A stretch of DNA of 37,116 nucleotides from Candidatus Uhrbacteria bacterium (lineage in GTDB: Bacteria > Patescibacteriota > Patescibacteriia > JACQRZ01): NCBI GenBank assembly GCA_016206145.1, contig JACQSA010000018.1, positions 1-37,116 of the forward strand, read 5' to 3'. The position numbers were made by a program, and so were the translations under genes. Shown one piece after another: positions 4,546-29,157 of the stretch (positions are counted from its first letter, which is position 1; each line of letters starts with the position of its first letter). The notes under the pieces are model-generated. The model was given only the letters and a program-made list of their open reading frames with translations. It had not been told where the DNA came from and did no database searches.

Positions 4546-5337
4546 TTAAATTGCGTCTTTTTTCGAAAAGAGTGCGCGCGGAACTTGAGTGCTTCTCGTC
4601 GTGGATTCATCAAACGGTTTTTGAGAGAAAATTACTGTACGCTCTTCGCTGCGGGATTGGCCAAATTTTTTTGCAGCAGTGACAGTGATGACGTTCACTC
4701 CCTCTTGCAGTCCTACCATCTGCCGAAAAACTCCCTCCTCGCTTTTTACCACATGTTCACCGTTGATCGTTACCTGCGCATGGGTATCTACACGGCCAAC
4801 CACCTCGATTGTATTGACGGCGCTGAGCGAATTATTATATGGGCTCACAATCAAAAGCTCTGGCGCGCGCATCATCCGATACCCCAAAAAAACAATATAA
4901 GAAAAACAGGCAGTGGCAATGAGTGCAGTCACGCCGGTGCGTATGATATGCGGAGTTACCCAAAAGTGGGATGCTCGAACTTTTGGCGCCAACGTGGATG
5001 GCGCGTCGTCATCTCGCGCAGAAGCATAAAACGGTTTTGCCGCTCTATACAGTTCGCAGACTTCCTCCCACTCAAACCCTACGTATGTGCTATACATGCG
5101 GAGTACGTTTTTTAAGTATACTTCTTCGCGAAACGCTCCAAATTCATTATTTTCAATACGCTCAAGATGTTTTCTCTGAATCACAAGAGTCCTTGCCACG
5201 TCATCCAGAGTCAATCCATGGGCAAAGCGTGCGGAACGAATATGATCACCAAGCGTACGCACGGTGCGTACTGGCGTACGGGTAAATGTCGCCATATTTT
5301 TCAGTCCCATCTTAACCTTAGTGACAGAATTGTTCAA
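4546..5337 (-). CDS. RodZ-like protein: N-terminal HTH, single TM, C-terminal Ig-like/PEGA-like domain
   Basis: '[62 protein letters not shown]' (HTH_25) followed by a TM and '[36 protein letters not shown]'. 4-nt overlap with ftsK. Confidence 0.8.
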
Positions 5338-7646: not shown

Positions 7647-10600
7647 CTATTCTTTTTTACTGTTATAGCCAGTACCCACCGGAATCAAACGGCCGATAAT
7701 GACGTTTTCTTTAAGACCTTGAAGATAATCAATTTTGCCCGTAACTGCGGCATTGATAAGTACGCGCGCTGTTTCTTGAAATGACGCTGCGGACAGCCAG
7801 CTTTGAGTGGAAAGGGAAGATTTGGTAATACCCATAAGCAAGTAGTCGCCTTTTGCCTCTTGCGTGCCGCTTTCCTTAGCGCGCGTATTTTCCTGAATAA
7901 ATTCTGTCCGTTCTACCACTTCGCCGGGAAGAAGGTTTGTATCTCCTCCTTCTGTCACATATACCCGGGAAAACATCTGCCGTACGATTACTTCAATATG
8001 TTTGTCGTTCAGCTTTTGGCCTTGAGAAAAATAAATGCGTTGGATCTCCCGAATAATATATTTCTGCGTTTCCGTCGTGCCGCGATACTTATAAAGTAAT
8101 TGAAGATCCATATTCCCCTCGGTAAGCCGCGTGCCGGGGCCGACAAGATCGCCGTCTTTGACGACTACATAGAGATTTTGAGGGACTACATACTCTTTGA
8201 CCTTAGATACAGTACACGAAACTGTAATTGCATCTTTGCCTATCTTTACAATACCCCCTCGTTCTGCGTGAAGTTCGTGTGCGCCAACAAGAGCGAGTAC
8301 ATCGCCTGCGTGTATTGACTGGCCGTCTTTCACTTCAATTGTCCGCTTGGTTCGCTTTTTCTTTTTCCCTTCTCCTTCCTCTTCTTGATCGGAAGGTGCG
8401 CTCTCCTGCCCGCCGCGCAAACGATATACATCGTCTTCTTGCGCTTCGTGGTGTATGGCGACCACTTTTTGTCCTTCTACGCCTCTTACAATTTCTTTGC
8501 CAGACTCATCAACAACTGATCGTTGCTTCTTTGAAATTGAAACAGTGCCTGCGACTTCACTTATAATCGCGCGTACTTTTGGTATGCGAGCTTCAAAAAG
8601 TTCTTCCACGCGAGGAAGGCCCTGTGTAATGTCGACTCCCGCAACACCGCCAGTATGAAAGGTACGCATAGTAAGTTGTGTTCCCGGTTCACCAAGACTT
8701 TGCGCGGCAATAATGCCGACTGCCGTACCTTCCTTCACCAGTGAATTATACGCGGGATCAAGTCCGTAACACTTCTGACACACTCCCCGAACAGAAGCGC
8801 ATGTAAGGAGCGAACGGATACGCAGGTGTTCTATTCCGCTTGCACGCAACGCGCTGACCTGCTCTTTGGTAATGTATTCACCCCGTTTTATAATCACTTT
8901 GCCTTGCGCGTCGGTAATGTGCTGAGGGCTCACACGTCCGAAGGCGCGCGCATAAAAATCAAGATCAAATTCCGCCCCTTCCTGCTTCGTGATTTCCAAT
9001 CCTTCTTTCTCAAGACAGTCTGACTCTGTAATAACTACGTCCTGAGCGACATCAACCAAACGGCGAGTGAGATATCCTGCGTTTGATGTTCTGAGCGCGG
9101 TATCTACAAGACCTTTTCGAGCTCCATGGGTAGAAATGAAATACTCAAGCACGCCAAGGCCTTCTTTAAAACTGCTTTTCACCGCAAGCTCGATAATTTC
9201 ACCGGATGGGTTTGCCAACAGTCCCTTCATACCAATAATCTGATTCAATTGGGCCCATGTACCGCGCGCGCCAGATTCAATAATGGTAGCAACTGAAGAT
9301 CCTTTCGGGAGTGCCTGTTTGGCAAGTTTTGAAATTTTATCTCGAGTCTCTGTCCAAATACCAATAATTTTATTACGGCGCTCCTGAAAGGTGAGCAGAC
9401 CGATTTCGTATTGGCTCTGCACTTCATCAATGCGCTTCGTCGCTTCTTTGATAAGCTCAGGTTTTTCAGAGAGAAGCGGAATGTCGTCCATGCCAAAAGA
9501 AAGGCCTGATTGCGTAAGATAATGCGCGCATGTCTCTTTAATCTCATCAAGAATGCCTGCGGTAATATCCATCCCTGTCATTTCAAGACATAAAGACACG
9601 ATTTCGCCCATCTTTTTCTTGTCAATCGTATCGTTCCAGTACGGCAACGTAGCAGGGAGCAGATTATTAAAAATAATTCTTCCAAGGGAAGTTTCCAGGC
9701 GCGTATGCGGGGCTTCCACACGCGCGCGTGTTGCAAGGCCTTCTGATACGCGGACAAGAATCTTTTCATTCAAACGGATAGAATCAAGTGAATATGCAAG
9801 GATCGCCTCCTCTTCTGAAGAAAATTTCTTAATGGCTCCCTGGTCTTTTGTGTCCTCCCCCTGCGCAAACGCTGTCATATAATACGCGCCCCAGACAATA
9901 TCCTGGCTCGGCATCGCGATCGGATGCCCTGTGGCAGGCTTTAAAAGATTTCGAGAAGCAAGCATTATGGTTGAGGCCTCTTGACGGGCTTCTTCGGAAA
10001 GCGGAACATGCACCGCCATCTGATCGCCGTCGAAGTCTGCGTTGAATGCAGCACATACAAGCGGATGAATCTGAATTGCTTTCCCTTCAATAAGTACTGG
10101 CTTGAATGCTTGAATGCCAAGCCGATGGAGTGTGGGCGCACGATTAAGGAGCACATACGAATCCTTTACGATCTCTTCAAGGATGTCCCATACTTCAGTC
10201 CATCCCGCTTCGATAAAGCGAGTCGCGCTTCGCACGTTAAATACATATTCCTGCTTTATAAGGCGGCTAATGACGAATGGCTTAAAAAGATCAAGGGCCA
10301 TTGTTTTTGGAAGACCGCATTCATGCAGTTTCAGGTGTGGTCCGACGACAATGACACTGCGCCCGGAATAATCAATGCGCTTACCCAAAAGATTCTGTCG
10401 AAAACGCCCCCGTTTGCCCTTCAACATATCTGCAAGAGATTTTAGTGTTCTCTTTTTCCCGGTAGATGCAATGACGGTTTTCCCGTGGCGGGCGGAATTA
10501 TCAATGAGCGCATCCACTGCTTCTTGAAGCATGCGTTTCTCGTTTCTGCAAATAACTTCCGGGGCCTTGAGTTCAATGAGTTGTTGCAGTCGATTATTGC

Positions 10601-11603
10601 GATTGATCACTCGACGATATAAATCATTGAGGTCTGAAGTAGCAAATCTGCCTCCGTCGAGCGCAACCATAGGGCGAAGATCCGGAGGAATAATAGGGAT
10701 CGTTGAAAGAACCATTGATTCAGGCCGGATTCCGTTTGCAATAAAACTTTTCACGAGTTTTGCTCTGCGGATAAGGCGCTCACGTTTTACGCCGCCTGCA
10801 ATTTCAATCTCCTTGTCAAGATGTGTCTCAAGCTTCGCGAGATCAGTACGCGCAAGAAGCGTACGGATCGCTTCCGCGCCGATCCCGGCTTCAAAAAGAT
10901 GCCCATACCGCAACGAAAGGTCGCGATAGGATTGTTCACTGAGAATTTTGAATGGTTTTAAGCTCTTTAATTCTTCCTCAACAATCTTTGTGCGTTCGTC
11001 GAGTTTTGCATATGCGGCGGCTTTTTCCTTCTCGATTTCTTGCTTTGCTTTTTCTTCTTGCACGGAAGAAAATTTGCGCGCAATCTCATTTTCCACACTT
11101 TTCCGTTTCGTCTTGTATTCCTCGCGCAACGCGTCGAGCGTTCCTTTCTTCGCAGATTCAGAAACATTCATAATGATAAAACTCGCAAAGTAGATGACTT
11201 TCTCAAGATTTTGAACCGAGAGATCTAAAGTCAGGCCGATCTTTGAAGGCACACCGCGAAGAAACCATATGTGGGAAACAGGAGCTGATAAGTCAATATG
11301 GCCCATACGCTCACGACGCACGATAGATCGAGTGACTTCCACTCCGCACTTATCGCAAACAATACCCTTATACCGAATCTTTTTATATTTTCCGCAATAA
11401 CATTCCCAATCCTTTGTCGGACCAAAAATCCGTTCTGAAAAAAGTCCGTCTTTTTCAGGACGCTGGGTGCGATAATTGATTGTTTCAGGACGCGTTACTT
11501 CGCCGTACGACCAACGATGAATATCTTCGGCTGACGCCACCTTGAGGCGTATTGCATCGAAATCTTGCACTGTAACACTATCTCTTGTTTCTTCGCGGTT
11601 CAT
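7647..11603 (-). CDS. rpoC: DNA-directed RNA polymerase subunit beta'
   Basis: '[16 protein letters not shown]' active site, zinc ribbon '[24 protein letters not shown]', second Zn site '[13 protein letters not shown]'. Confidence 0.99.
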
Positions 11604-24321: not shown

Positions 24322-24579
24322 CTATTCATACAATTGTGCATGTGTCCCAACCTGATCAAAAACAATCTCTTCCCCGCGTATTAGATATAATGCTCGATAA
24401 TCTCCCGTGATGTTTATGCTTCCGTATGCTTTATACGCTCCCTTAAGTACATGGTTGTGCAGAAGCGGATCAAAGGAATTCTTGGAAAACCGTTCGACGC
24501 GTTCTACGAGTTGTTCTCGAACGCGGGAGGGAAGTTTCTTTGCCTGCTTAAGGAAATACTTCGAATACGAGATGTTCAT
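24322..24579 (-). CDS. RelE/YafQ/ParE-superfamily toxin (putative mRNA interferase)
   Basis: 'MNISYSKYFLKQAKKLPSRVREQLVERVERFSKNSFDPLLHNHVLKGAYKAYGSINITGDYRALYLIRGEEIVFDQVGTHAQLYE'; 4-nt overlap with the upstream antitoxin. Confidence 0.88.
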   Translation of the reverse strand: MNISYSKYFLKQAKKLPSRVREQLVERVERFSKNSFDPLLHNHVLKGAYKAYGSINITGDYRALYLIRGEEIVFDQVGTHAQLYE

Positions 24580-24857
24580 CGAAGTTCGTCGCGCAAAAAG
24601 TCAACGGCTTCTTTGTTGTTGCGAAAACGATAATAATCCCCTTTTTCGAGTTGCGCGCGTGATTGAGCAAGCATTTTACGGGTCCGCGCATTTGGCACAG
24701 GCGGCATATCAAAAGTAACGCTTTCTTCCGAAGCGAAGCGACGCAATTCGTTATTCAACACTGCATTTATGCTGATACCAAGCTTCTTGGCAACCCGCAT
24801 CGCGCGATTCTTGATATGAGGATCTGTTTTTATATTGATAACGGAGTACATGTTCAT
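24576..24857 (-). CDS. RelB/DinJ-like antitoxin
   Basis: 'MNMYSVINIKTDPHIKNRAMRVAKKLGISINAVLNNELRRFASEESVTFD' (RHH) followed by a toxin-binding tail. ORF runs to 24899 but the ATG at 24857 abuts the promoter. Confidence 0.85.
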   Translation of the reverse strand: MNMYSVINIKTDPHIKNRAMRVAKKLGISINAVLNNELRRFASEESVTFDMPPVPNARTRKMLAQSRAQLEKGDYYRFRNNKEAVDFLRDELR

Positions 24858-24893
24858 ACCAAAAGTATACACTTTTGGTACTTTCAGTGTCAA
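24857..24893 (-). promoter_or_regulatory. TA operon promoter and operator
   Basis: Minus strand TTGACA (24888-24893)-N18-TATACT (24864-24869), overlapped by the inverted repeat TACCAAAAGT-ATAC-ACTTTTGGTA (24857-24880). Confidence 0.8.
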
Positions 24894-24904
24894 GAGCAAG
24901 TTTT

Positions 24905-25104: not shown

Positions 25105-25418
25105 CTATTCAATACGAACCCCCGTTTTTTTTATTTCATACACAATCGGATCGGCGCTGCTTGCAAATTCTTTCACTGTAAACCCATGAGGTTCAATGCG
25201 TGTATCCACACTCATTCTTAAATCCCAAAGCAATAACCTGTTTTTATCCAAGTTCCTCTGCAATTTGTCAGAAACAACTGCGACATCAATGTCGCTCCAT
25301 ATATTTGCCTTTTTTTTGCGTGCGAGCCAAAAAGGTACATCGCAGAAAACGGATATTGCGCTTGACGCAACGCACGTGCGTAACGCTTTGCTATTTTTTT
25401 CGCTTGACTTCTTGGCAT
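25105..25418 (-). pseudogene. MNT-type nucleotidyltransferase, reading frame split at an A8 tract
   Basis: Frame 1 'MPRSQAKKIAKRYARALRQAQYPFSAMYLFGSHAK..' and, one frame away, '..KKKANIWSDIDVAVVSDKLQRNLDKNRLLLWDLRMSVDTRIEPHGFTVKEFASSADPIVYEIKKTGVRIE'; together they rebuild the GSxAxG-(N)-SDIDV signature. Break at the T8 (+) tract 25310-25317. Confidence 0.8.
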
Positions 25419-25569
25419 AGCCGTTTATACAATGAATCAATTTTAGACTTAAAAATCCTCATATACATGAGAGGTGTTTTTCGTTGTGTGAAAAATAGAG
25501 AGGTGTATGCCATTTTTCGAGTTTCGTAATTCAGAACAGAATTGGAGGTGGGGAAGCCTTTGGAGGTGA

Positions 25570-25818
25570 GAGTACGGGAATCAATCACAAAAAGCATTTC
25601 TCGATGAATGGCAGGCCAAACGTCCTCATGATTATCTTTCATGGGTCAACCAAAATGAGTCTGATGAAAAAATTGAACGACTGCGTACATGCGTGAATCG
25701 CGGGCAGCCGTTTGGTAGTAATTCATGGACGGAAAGAATAACAAAAGAGTGGATACCTGAGTCAACTTTTCGCAGAGAAGGAAGGCCGAGTAAGCAAAGA
25801 ACTAAAAACTATTCCTGA
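25570..25818 (+). pseudogene. C-terminal remnant of a REP-associated (Y1/RAYT-type) transposase
   Basis: 'FLDEWQAKRPHDYLSWVNQNESDEKIERLRTCVNRGQPFGSNSWTERITKEWIPESTFRREGRPSKQRTKNYS*' matches the typical RAYT C-terminus (WVNxP...RxxRRGxPFG...W...GRPxK); no N-terminal catalytic part found. Confidence 0.75.
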
Positions 25819-25853
25819 CACCGTTTCCACCGTTTCCACGCGGGCTCACGGAA

Positions 25854-25978: not shown

Positions 25979-27025
25979 TCATAATGCTATTGGCTCCTTA
26001 ACGGTCTCACACTCTTTCCCGATAGTATAGTCTCCAGCACTAAACGGCTTACTCCAACAAACTTCCTGCTCTGTTGCCCCAACTCGATTTGTTGGAAAGG
26101 GACAGAAATAAGCAGGCGTATTTTTAATACGGACTGGAGTAGCGTTAAATTCTTCTTGTAAAAATTGCTTGCACCTTTCTAGCTTCATCCGACGAGCTAC
26201 TTTCCCACCGTCAACCTTCACTCCACAACATCCTCCCATTACTTCGCTTATATCAAGACCTCCCCCCCCGCAAAAACCATTATAACAGTTCCCTGATACA
26301 CATTCACAATCTGATTTGCATGCTTTTGCATTCGCAATGGTTCCCCTACAAGCTGTGCCTGATGGTACAGTTGGAGGAGGAGGAGTAATAATTTTTGCAG
26401 GAGCGGCAAGGGCTTTTGCGAGTTCTGATGATGACATTGCCCGGTAACAAAGGGCATCCTTATGTATTTGATACCACTGCTCGCCAGCGCTTTGAAACGC
26501 AAGCTTCCCTGAACCTCCCGTGAGCGTCACAACGATCAAGTTCACTCCGACCCATGCGCCGAATACTATTAAAAGTCCGATCACGGCATTTTTCAATGTA
26601 GTCATACCTGCCTGTATGCGTTTTTCTGTTCCCCCGGCAATCAACCATTGAAACCCGCCCCAGACAAACATCAAAAGCGCAAGACTTCCGACCACACTGA
26701 GAAGCAAGTGATATGCTGACAAGACAGTCTGGACAATACCTGAAAGGCTGTGATAACAAGATATTTCTTCCCCATCATGAATGACACTGCCACATCCGCC
26801 AATCAAAAAACCTGTGGCTCCCTTCTCTGGTCGAGATCCTTTAATCAATTCGTTATCTAAGCAATATTGAACAGCCTCAACAGGCGCTGCAAAAAAAATC
26901 AATGAAGCCGAAAAGACAATCATCGTCAATACAGATACAAGTTTCCAGCTATGAAAGAATCTGTGGCTCCCCGATCGGACCGAGGATGATACTATAGGCA
27001 TACAATCGTTCATATCAATACCCAT
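25979..27025 (-). CDS. Large pilin-type/TrbC-like protein, paralogue 7, with C-terminal Cys-rich domain
   Basis: 'SAYHLLLSVVGSLALLMFVWGGFQWLIAGGTEKRIQAGMTTLKNAVIGLLIVFGAWVGVNLIVV' matches the pilin-array core; followed by 'CRGTIANAKACKSDCECVSGNCYNGFCGGGG' and further cysteines. Confidence 0.75.
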   Translation of the reverse strand: MGIDMNDCMPIVSSSVRSGSHRFFHSWKLVSVLTMIVFSASLIFFAAPVEAVQYCLDNELIKGSRPEKGATGFLIGGCGSVIHDGEEISCYHSLSGIVQTVLSAYHLLLSVVGSLALLMFVWGGFQWLIAGGTEKRIQAGMTTLKNAVIGLLIVFGAWVGVNLIVVTLTGGSGKLAFQSAGEQWYQIHKDALCYRAMSSSELAKALAAPAKIITPPPPTVPSGTACRGTIANAKACKSDCECVSGNCYNGFCGGGGLDISEVMGGCCGVKVDGGKVARRMKLERCKQFLQEEFNATPVRIKNTPAYFCPFPTNRVGATEQEVCWSKPFSAGDYTIGKECETVKEPIAL

Positions 27026-27038
27026 TCTGGATTATTTG
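27017..27038. repeat. 22-bp direct repeat, copy 1, at the left edge of the PIN cassette
   Basis: AATACCCATTCTGGATTATTTG; identical to 27732-27753. Confidence 0.97.
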
Positions 27039-27418
27039 CTTGATTGAGTAGGAGGCGTTCCTATAGAATTTCGCAAATCAAGATTTGGAATGCTCTTAAA
27101 ATCCTTGATGTTCTTTGTGATTAGTGTGAAGCTCCACTCTAAAGCCGTTGCTGCAATAAGAAGATCAGGAAGCCGAGTTGATCGTGTTCTACCAAGTTCC
27201 CCTGCGCGTTGCGCGATACTATTGTCTACGCTCACTGGCGTCATTATGCTCATTAGATCAATCAGTGATCGAATGTCATCATCTCCTAACCCGGGATAGC
27301 GTAACGCTTCAGCGACTGTAATAGTTGAGATATAAAATTCCGTTTCCTTTGGAGCAGAGGAAAGAATATTTTCTGAGAGATGCAAGAGAAGAATATTTGT
27401 GTCAAGTAACACTCGCAT
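27032..27418 (-). CDS. PIN-domain (VapC-like) ribonuclease toxin
   Basis: 'MRVLLDTNILLLHLSEN', 'STITVAEALRYPGL', 'RLPDLLIAATALEWSFTLITKNIKDFKSIPNLDL'. Confidence 0.88.
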   Translation of the reverse strand: MRVLLDTNILLLHLSENILSSAPKETEFYISTITVAEALRYPGLGDDDIRSLIDLMSIMTPVSVDNSIAQRAGELGRTRSTRLPDLLIAATALEWSFTLITKNIKDFKSIPNLDLRNSIGTPPTQSSK

Positions 27419-27436
27419 AAAGTGGCGACAATGTCG

Positions 27437-27673
27437 CTAATTCCAATCGTTGCGAACCTTCCTCTGCCAGATAAGAATATCTTTTTCCGAATATTTATTA
27501 CGCGTTACTCCTCCCGTACGTGTAAGAATACTGTTTTTTGTACTGTAATTGCCAGAAACTGGAGAAATGCAAACAAGGCGGTCCTTTAATCGATGAAGCG
27601 CTTCATCGATATGCTCAAGTTCGCGATATATTGACTGAGACTGAATTGGTTCTTGGTGCATATTGGGTTCCAT
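27437..27673 (-). CDS. Putative cognate antitoxin of the PIN toxin (no recognised family)
   Basis: Small ORF directly upstream of the PIN gene, same strand, 18-nt gap; 'MHQEPIQSQSIYRELEHIDEALHRLKDRL...KYSEKDILIWQRKVRNDWN'. Called by position. Confidence 0.5.
   Translation of the reverse strand: MEPNMHQEPIQSQSIYRELEHIDEALHRLKDRLVCISPVSGNYSTKNSILTRTGGVTRNKYSEKDILIWQRKVRNDWN
27589..27610. repeat. Perfect 22-bp palindrome inside the putative antitoxin gene
   Basis: ATCGATGAAGC|GCTTCATCGAT, no spacer. Confidence 0.97.
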
Positions 27674-27729
27674 ATAATTCAATACTAGCAAATAACGCAG
27701 TATAAAGCAATCCACACGCACCGTTCAAC

Positions 27730-29157
27730 CTAATACCCATTCTGGATTATTTGTTTCGTTTTAGTAAGCAACCCCCCAAAAAAAGTCTTTTGTTCTTCCG
27801 GAGTGCCGCCTTTGCCAAGCAGTGCTTCGGTGATCAGGCTCGCCATGGCGCGCTCCATTGTATCCGGATTTTTTCCATAAAACCATGTTTTTGCCATCAG
27901 GAGTTGTGCCGCAAACGGATAGAGCGCATCAGCCTTTTTCTGACCCTCGATCAGATCTCGAAGCGCAGTCGGTTTGCGCGTACTCTCAAGATATTTCTGC
28001 GCTTGTTCTTTTGCAGTGGCAAACAAAAGAAAATCCCATGCATAATCTTTACGCGCGGATCTTTTTGATACGACTTCAACCCAATAATTCGCCATAGTCG
28101 CAGGAACTTCGGGATTTAATTGAGGCAACGGCACCACTCCATAGCGGATCCGCGGATTGAGTGCGCGCAGCTGGTCCAAATGATACGAATACCCAAACAT
28201 CATTGCAGTACGCCCTTGAGTGAATGCCTCAAAGCTGTCTGAAAATTTCTCATCCCATGTATACAATTCCGAAGTGGGTGAGGCAAAATCAGTATAAAAC
28301 ATCAATGCGTTTATGGAGGGGTGCACTGAATCGTCTTTGATGTAATCAGGAATCCTGTCAAAAGTAATGCCCGTAGGGCTGCTCATTTGCGCGCCATTCT
28401 GCATCATCAAGGTAGCAAGGATATCTGTCGATCGCTGCACACTGCCCGCTCCCCCGAGCGCGGCACCGGAAATTTTGATCTCGCGCGTATTGGGATCGCG
28501 GACAGTTAAGCGCCCTTCAGAAACCATATTGGTAAACTCTGTCCAGCTTCGTGGCGGAGCTCCAATGCCTGCGTTATTAAACAGGTCTTTGTTGTAAAAA
28601 AGCGCAAGCACATCGACAAAATATGGAACCCCCACAAGAACTGTTTTGCCGTCAATATTCCTTATGACATCGCTGGTTACTGCGTCAATAAATTGCTCTT
28701 GCAATTCACGAATGGTGGGCGCAGGAATATCTTGCAGTTTGATGTCTGTTTTTTTTTGAAATCCGCTTGACGTCTGAATAAAAAACGCAATCTTTCTGGT
28801 GTCAGGCACCGGCTCAATTTTGGGTTCATATTTCCCCATCCATGTATTGTGGATAGAAAAAATATCCGGTCCGCGATTTTCTGCCAAAGCATTGACTAAT
28901 TCAGACTCATATTCTTCAAATCGAAGCCGCCTATATTGGATAGTAACATTCGGATGCTTTTGTTGATATTCGGCAATAATATCCTGTATCGCTTGATCGC
29001 CATCAAACACTCGCCAATAAGTAAGTGTGACGGGCAGTTTTGCCTCTTTGAGTTCTTTAGACGACGGACCTTTTGGTTTTAAGGCGATAAGCGCTGCAAG
29101 CACCCCAAAGATTACTACAAGCGCGAGTCCTAAAATAAGCAGTATTCGATTTTGCAT
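27730..29157 (-). CDS. Extracellular solute-binding protein (family 1, sugar-type ABC transporter SBP), membrane-anchored
   Basis: N-terminal TM 'MQNRILLILGLALVVIFGVLAALIAL'; 'VTLTYWRVFDGDQAIQDIIAEYQQKHPNVTIQYRRL', 'GVPYFVDVLALFYNKDLFNNAGIGAPPRSWTEF'. Confidence 0.9.
   Translation of the reverse strand: MQNRILLILGLALVVIFGVLAALIALKPKGPSSKELKEAKLPVTLTYWRVFDGDQAIQDIIAEYQQKHPNVTIQYRRLRFEEYESELVNALAENRGPDIFSIHNTWMGKYEPKIEPVPDTRKIAFFIQTSSGFQKKTDIKLQDIPAPTIRELQEQFIDAVTSDVIRNIDGKTVLVGVPYFVDVLALFYNKDLFNNAGIGAPPRSWTEFTNMVSEGRLTVRDPNTREIKISGAALGGAGSVQRSTDILATLMMQNGAQMSSPTGITFDRIPDYIKDDSVHPSINALMFYTDFASPTSELYTWDEKFSDSFEAFTQGRTAMMFGYSYHLDQLRALNPRIRYGVVPLPQLNPEVPATMANYWVEVVSKRSARKDYAWDFLLFATAKEQAQKYLESTRKPTALRDLIEGQKKADALYPFAAQLLMAKTWFYGKNPDTMERAMASLITEALLGKGGTPEEQKTFFGGLLTKTKQIIQNGY
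27732..27753. repeat. 22-bp direct repeat, copy 2, at the right edge of the PIN cassette (3' end of the SBP gene)
   Basis: AATACCCATTCTGGATTATTTG; encodes the last residues ...QIIQNGY of the SBP. Confidence 0.97.

Follow-up and report, generated by a model that had tools for sequence, protein, structure and literature searches.

A toxin-antitoxin unit between two copies of a gene's 3' end in Candidatus Uhrbacteria, and the recurrence of this architecture in related Patescibacteria

A locus of a tiny, groundwater-type member of Candidatus Uhrbacteria raises the question of how a small toxin-antitoxin (TA) unit with no recombinase gene of its own could have entered a conserved gene cluster and left the genes on both sides intact. 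The window considered in the current analysis is a stretch of 37,116 nucleotides (assembly GCA_016206145.1, contig JACQSA010000018.1, positions 1 to 37,116 of the forward strand). It encodes a solute-binding protein (SBP) of an ABC transporter, followed by a PIN-domain protein with a small ORF upstream of it and then by a T4SS_pilin-type gene, all of them on the minus strand. The features of the locus are collected in Table 1.

Table 1. Positions of the features at the SBP-pilin junction, numbered along the window
Feature	Position	Strand	Remarks
T4SS_pilin-type gene	25979..27013	-	Ancestral downstream neighbour of SBP
Left repeat copy	27017..27038	+	Original SBP 3' end (QIIQNGY on the minus strand); supplies the PIN stop
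Inserted segment, 693 bp	27039..27731	-	Promoter, antitoxin and PIN toxin
PIN-domain (VapC-like) toxin, 128 aa (predicted)	27032..27418	-	PF01850; D6, E37 and D85 conserved
Putative antitoxin, about 78 aa	27437..27673	-	Conserved upstream of PIN in G008 and G038
Promoter-like TTGAAC-18-TATACT	27699..27728	-	Consensus match only; just inside the right repeat copy
Right repeat copy	27732..27753	+	Last 22 nt of the SBP frame now used
ABC-transporter solute-binding protein (SBP), 475 aa	27730..29157	-	Gene with the duplicated 3' end

The inserted segment contains little beyond the promoter, the antitoxin and the PIN (VapC-like) toxin, and these two genes are the only ones in it. As in VapBC modules, a PIN protein scoring above the Pfam cut-off (39.7 bits against PF01850, cut-off 23.6) is preceded by a small gene in the same orientation. 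The module differs from VapBC in that the toxin remains under the NCBIfam VapC cut-offs and the antitoxin lies outside the known families, the small ORF having matched none of these, VapB families included. PADLOC also gave no match for the module. The PIN protein is predicted to be active as a toxin. Its three conserved acidic residues are invariant in the orthologues compared, and it matches the VapC structures 7by2 and 3zvk at a distance. A C-terminal extension of about 9 residues, which is not seen in the orthologues, ends in the left repeat copy. The linkage of the small ORF to the PIN gene is kept in three genomes, the identity of the small ORF being 58% in G008 and 23% in G038.

A second TA pair (24322-24899, minus strand) is situated between pilin genes of the same cluster and comprises a toxin of the ParE/RelE type (PF05016, E-value 8.7e-5) and a RelB-like ORF upstream. 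Pilin 1 and this RelBE pair are separated by an MNT-like nucleotidyltransferase ORF with the motif WSDIDVAVV (25105-25440, minus strand) and by an apparent leftover of a REP-type Y1 transposase, from its C-terminal part (NRGQPFGSNSWTERI; about 25500-25820, plus strand); both have been identified by eye.

A preliminary description of this DNA had reported a perfect 22-bp direct repeat around the PIN gene and its putative antitoxin. The repeat, AATACCCATTCTGGATTATTTG, is present in two exact plus-strand copies at precisely the positions given there, and the number of copies expected by chance in the window is 0 even when 3 mismatches are allowed. No other exact direct repeat with copies less than 6 kb apart is as long in the window, the runner-up being 17 bp, and the longest repeat obtained in 60 Markov-shuffled windows is 16 bp. 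A search for further copies beside other TA modules, which had been proposed, returned only the two copies of the window and none next to another TA module; no third copy at 3 or fewer mismatches is present in the whole 922-kb, 61-contig genome. The partial match TGAACG noticed in the flanks is real, and on both sides the flanks beyond the 22 bp retain an imperfect similarity that is weakly above that of shuffled sequences (p about 0.009).

The right copy encodes the C-terminus of SBP (...KQIIQNGY), as had been described, and is followed by a new TAG stop (27732-27730) that is formed across the insertion joint (TAT T/AG, the stroke marking the joint). In the frame of SBP, the left copy translates as QIIQNGY and is still joined to a TGA (27017-27015), one base and then the ATG AAC GAT of the pilin start (ATG at 27013). 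It also supplies the TAA stop of the PIN gene (27034-27032), in agreement with the preliminary description, but the ATG at 27025 that was taken there as the first of the pilin gene, and to which the ORF can be extended, is probably not the start. The junction in G001 reads exactly TGA-T-ATG, as at the left copy. The SBP proteins of family relatives terminate in QIIQ(E/N)GY or a like sequence, the stop codon often being TGA, and the pilin start follows a few to about 60 bases after the SBP end. Because of these TGA ends and the junction in G001, the left copy is regarded as the ancestral junction, and SBP as having been completed anew by the right one.

SBP is present in 131 of 144 related genomes. 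All the readable junctions within the family have a T4SS pilin gene directly after SBP and a single SBP 3' end, which is identical to the 22-mer at 14-18 of 22 positions in five family relatives; G007 is without an SBP match and the junction of G002 is unreadable, its SBP lying at a contig edge. The order of SBP and pilin is mostly the same in class-level relatives. No relative with a readable junction has a TA module at this position. All of these empty sites belong to genomes of other genera or families, the nearest relatives being other genera. With SBP and pilin adjacent there, the module is seen to be a derived insertion in the present lineage, at which the SBP 3' end has been duplicated and both neighbours have remained intact. 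The earlier proposal of a cassette inserted at the end of the SBP gene with the flanking genes restored is borne out by these comparisons, in which relatives from other genera run SBP directly into pilin with one copy of the repeat. Neither two copies with unrelated or no cargo nor an empty site devoid of the repeat has been seen.

An orthologous TA pair (PIN 72% and antitoxin 58% identical) is encoded in the same SBP-pilin cluster of G008, where it separates the second pilin gene from the third. In G038, which belongs to another family, a TA pair with 65% identity in PIN lies between direct repeats of about 150 bp that are 1125 bp apart. The module is, judging from sequence comparison, one that moves. 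It was not found in viral contigs; the close relatives in the contig collection are two Uhrbacteria MAGs only. A 23-bp repeat around the TA pair of G008 was considered as an insertion scar and rejected, as it stems from pilin gene paralogy, and the repeat of L214 was rejected likewise.

The G008 pair stands two pilin genes further along the shared cluster. This could mean that the TA unit formerly had such a downstream place in the SBP-pilin cluster and reached the SBP junction through a tandem duplication and a subsequent deletion, and the tightness of the insert around the TA genes agrees with such a movement. However, two events would be needed, the insert holds no remnant of a duplicated pilin gene, and a second PIN of the same type was not found elsewhere in the Uhrbacteria genome. 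We consider this history unlikely.

The surroundings of 67 PIN loci in related genomes have been surveyed against windows drawn from 20 stretches of 20 kb picked at random, with bracketing defined as flanking by direct repeats of 16 bp or more. Repeat-bracketed PIN loci number 11 of 67, compared with 25 of 840 control windows, which overlap and are not independent (p = 2e-5); when the Uhrbacteria locus and three doubtful loci are left out, 7 of 63 PIN loci are bracketed (p = 0.005). The corresponding counts are 7/30 for HicA, 3/30 for ParE and 0/30 for NUDIX loci, three earlier NUDIX matches having proved to be contig-end artefacts that are gone in the final count. Pooling of the PIN, ParE and HicA loci of related Patescibacteria gives 21/127 against 25/840 (p = 3e-8), with some of the bracketed TA matches being due to paralogy or dispersed repeats. 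The architecture of the Uhrbacteria locus thus recurs around TA units in related Patescibacteria genomes.

The repeats at these Patescibacteria loci strongly favour gene 3' ends, as is found for most of the annotated brackets. At 13 TA loci and three further inserts, one of the repeat copies overlaps with the 3' end of the outer gene or is no more than 20 nt away from it; repeats at gene 5' ends are confined to two loci (L129 and L302). The repeats are unrelated in sequence, involve different genes and range from 22 to 132 bp, the Uhrbacteria locus having the shortest. The other TA loci have repeats of 28 bp (L140), 86 (L144), 51 (L148), 67 (L157), 77 (L163), 71 of which 9 are coding (L175), 132 of which 17 are coding (L185), 71 (L225), 51 (L232), 83 (L242), 79 (L273) and 116 (L293), L163 and L242 falling just outside the strict exact-repeat count. 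The three inserts with other or unassigned cargo, in which no TA was recognised, show the same pattern (L205, L212 and L196).

The two copies at L205 (110 bp) are identical over the first 77 bp and have all their 8 differences, mostly synonymous (such as TCC/AGT for serine), in the last 33 bp. Such a pattern is hard to produce by uniform drift and easy by recombination, and it therefore favours homology-assisted illegitimate recombination. It fits a recombination between the resident gene end and a diverged incoming one, and the weak flank similarity at the 22-mer is compatible with, and not proof of, the same route. The copy differences pooled over loci comprise 33 synonymous and 33 nonsynonymous changes, a ratio of 0.29 that is only weakly below the expectation from drift combined with selection on whichever copy is used; it was rejected as decisive for recombination, since this selection makes it only suggestive.

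Repeated arrangements of other kinds have also been observed in the surveyed genomes. L211 (G050:C7:1-20000) contains, at 7925-11400, three consecutive cassettes of an AbiE pair, a RelBE pair and an AAA-DUF4143-like gene (named by eye), separated by four copies of CTCTACGAAAGAG in the same orientation within a longer similar context, which resembles an array of addiction-gene cassettes. At 1774-2148 of the same locus (G050:C7), a 33-bp direct repeat similar in sequence to the 5' portion of a tRNA gene flanks a small GIY-YIG-like ORF. A direct repeat of 40-45 bp at 411, 1153 and 2550 of L164 (G085:C12) encloses first a PIN toxin gene and next an AbiEii-like pair (both named by eye), and a repeat of up to 130 bp at 4547, 5419 and 7354 of L193 (G005:C1) encloses a DUF805-like gene, followed by NUDIX and HicAB-like genes. 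In L232 (G005:C9, 313-2151) the 3' end of one gene is present as three successive copies, two of which have a ParDE-type pair of opposite orientation between them.

Islands that are integrated by tyrosine recombinases at gene 3' ends restore the gene end and carry the displaced copy on the far side. The Uhrbacteria locus has this architecture of an integrated island, SBP being restored and the displaced copy lying on the far side, and the perfect core with weakly similar flanks, together with three tyrosine recombinases encoded in the genome, would suit a site-specific integration in which the 22-mer is the att core and the module a passive circle acted upon by a tyrosine recombinase in trans. 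Unlike such islands, it is only 693 bp long, has no recombinase gene in the insert and shares no att site with the comparable loci, whose repeats are unrelated, 28-132 bp long and situated in different genes; moreover, no further copy of the 22-mer is found in the genome and there is no stable fold at either copy. Site-specific integration is accordingly judged quite unlikely. Of the two descriptions offered earlier for the repeat, att-like core or target duplication, the latter has held, and the former is opposed by the lack of an integrase, an attC-like fold and another copy of the 22-mer.

An integron gene cassette was also considered and rejected, as both copies fold no better than shuffled sequences. 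A general integron-like system suggested by G038 was likewise set aside, the palindrome in question being found in G038 and not in G000 or G008. This imperfect palindrome of about 42 bp (AACGGCTCAATA..TTTGCGATCGCAAATA.TTGAGCCGTT; L080, L125-L128) has about nine copies, three of them at an exact spacing of 898 bp.

Non-autonomous transposition, in which a transposase acting in trans would have produced the target-site duplication, agrees with the clean insertion, the perfect duplication and a weak inverted similarity (17 nt, 82%) of the left copy to 27687-27703. It is very unlikely, however, in view of the absence of terminal inverted repeats at the exact ends of the insert and of repeats that vary from 22 to 132 bp among the sister loci, unlike target duplications of fixed length. 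Both a single integrase with its att site and a fixed-duplication transposase are disfavoured because the repeats are variable in length and unrelated in sequence. A chance repeat or an artefact of metagenome assembly, for which the shortness of 22 bp and the 61 contigs speak, is very unlikely given the zero chance expectation, the reading frames running across both junctions, the same TA in the same cluster of G008 and the many independent loci of the same architecture.

Homology-assisted illegitimate recombination is the likeliest route, and we think it probable that the TA unit was inserted in this way at the SBP/pilin junction with a 22-base duplication and has been retained by addiction. 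A minimal unit of promoter, small antitoxin and PIN/VapC-like RNase has entered the SBP/T4SS-pilin junction of the conserved cluster, and the terminal 22 coding bases of SBP were duplicated in the event. The SBP-side copy completes SBP with a new stop codon, and the far-side copy keeps the old SBP stop and the pilin start and incidentally ends the PIN gene. Short homology to incoming or intragenomic DNA would assist the recombination, with no dedicated recombinase. ComEC (PF03772) was not found in the Uhrbacteria genome, so that an uptake of the DNA by transformation is only conjectural.

A deletion between the repeats would restore the empty site exactly, and the toxin would poison the cells that lose the antitoxin; repeat-bracketed inserts would thus persist mainly when they carry an addiction module. 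The excess of TA units among the bracketed loci can be explained by such addiction, as removal through the repeats would be traceless and punished by the toxin. Toxicity is not necessarily the cause of this excess, because accessory DNA is often flanked by short repeats in general and the inserts with no recognised TA (L205, L212 and L196) share the pattern, and the enrichment may be an effect of accessory DNA rather than of toxicity.

Restriction-modification (RM) genes were reportedly found by Nobusato et al. in 2000 and Furuta et al. in 2010 to be inserted with long target duplication. The Uhrbacteria locus belongs with this kind of insertion and is not itself an RM insertion. Insertions of RM genes with long target duplication have been described as having no recombinase of their own, target direct repeats of variable length and an empty allele in relatives (PMC3874152, PMC3031569, PMC1643837). 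The present locus shares with them an addiction-type unit devoid of a recombinase and target repeats that bracket the insert and vary among loci (22-132 bp); an empty allele is seen here at the level of other genera and families. It differs in its cargo of a PIN toxin and a small antitoxin, in its host among the Patescibacteria and in its repeat of 22 bp as against the order of 100 bp. It is kept apart from integrase elements, integron cassettes and transposons because a defining feature of each was looked for and not found. In three other species, 10-18% of variable segments are flanked by repeats of at least 5 bp (PMC2884548). Those segments, which come from cultured species, are similar in being short inserts with short flanking repeats and no mobile-element enzymes; the duplication of a gene 3' end seen here is not described for them in the portion of that paper considered here.

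The bias to 3' ends is the most interesting part of the case. It is conceivable, if doubtful, that TA units of these Patescibacteria spread as recombinase-free cassettes parasitic on gene ends, which would use a copy of the 3' end of a host gene as homology arm, enter by a single crossover, leave the gene intact and have their reversal blocked by toxicity. The debate on how small transposase-free addiction modules move has rested chiefly on RM genes from a small number of cultured species. One insertion documented precisely before and after the event, together with many parallel cases in ultra-small bacteria, provides concrete junctions at which gene 3' ends as points of entry, and toxicity as the keeper of repeat-bracketed inserts, can be tested.
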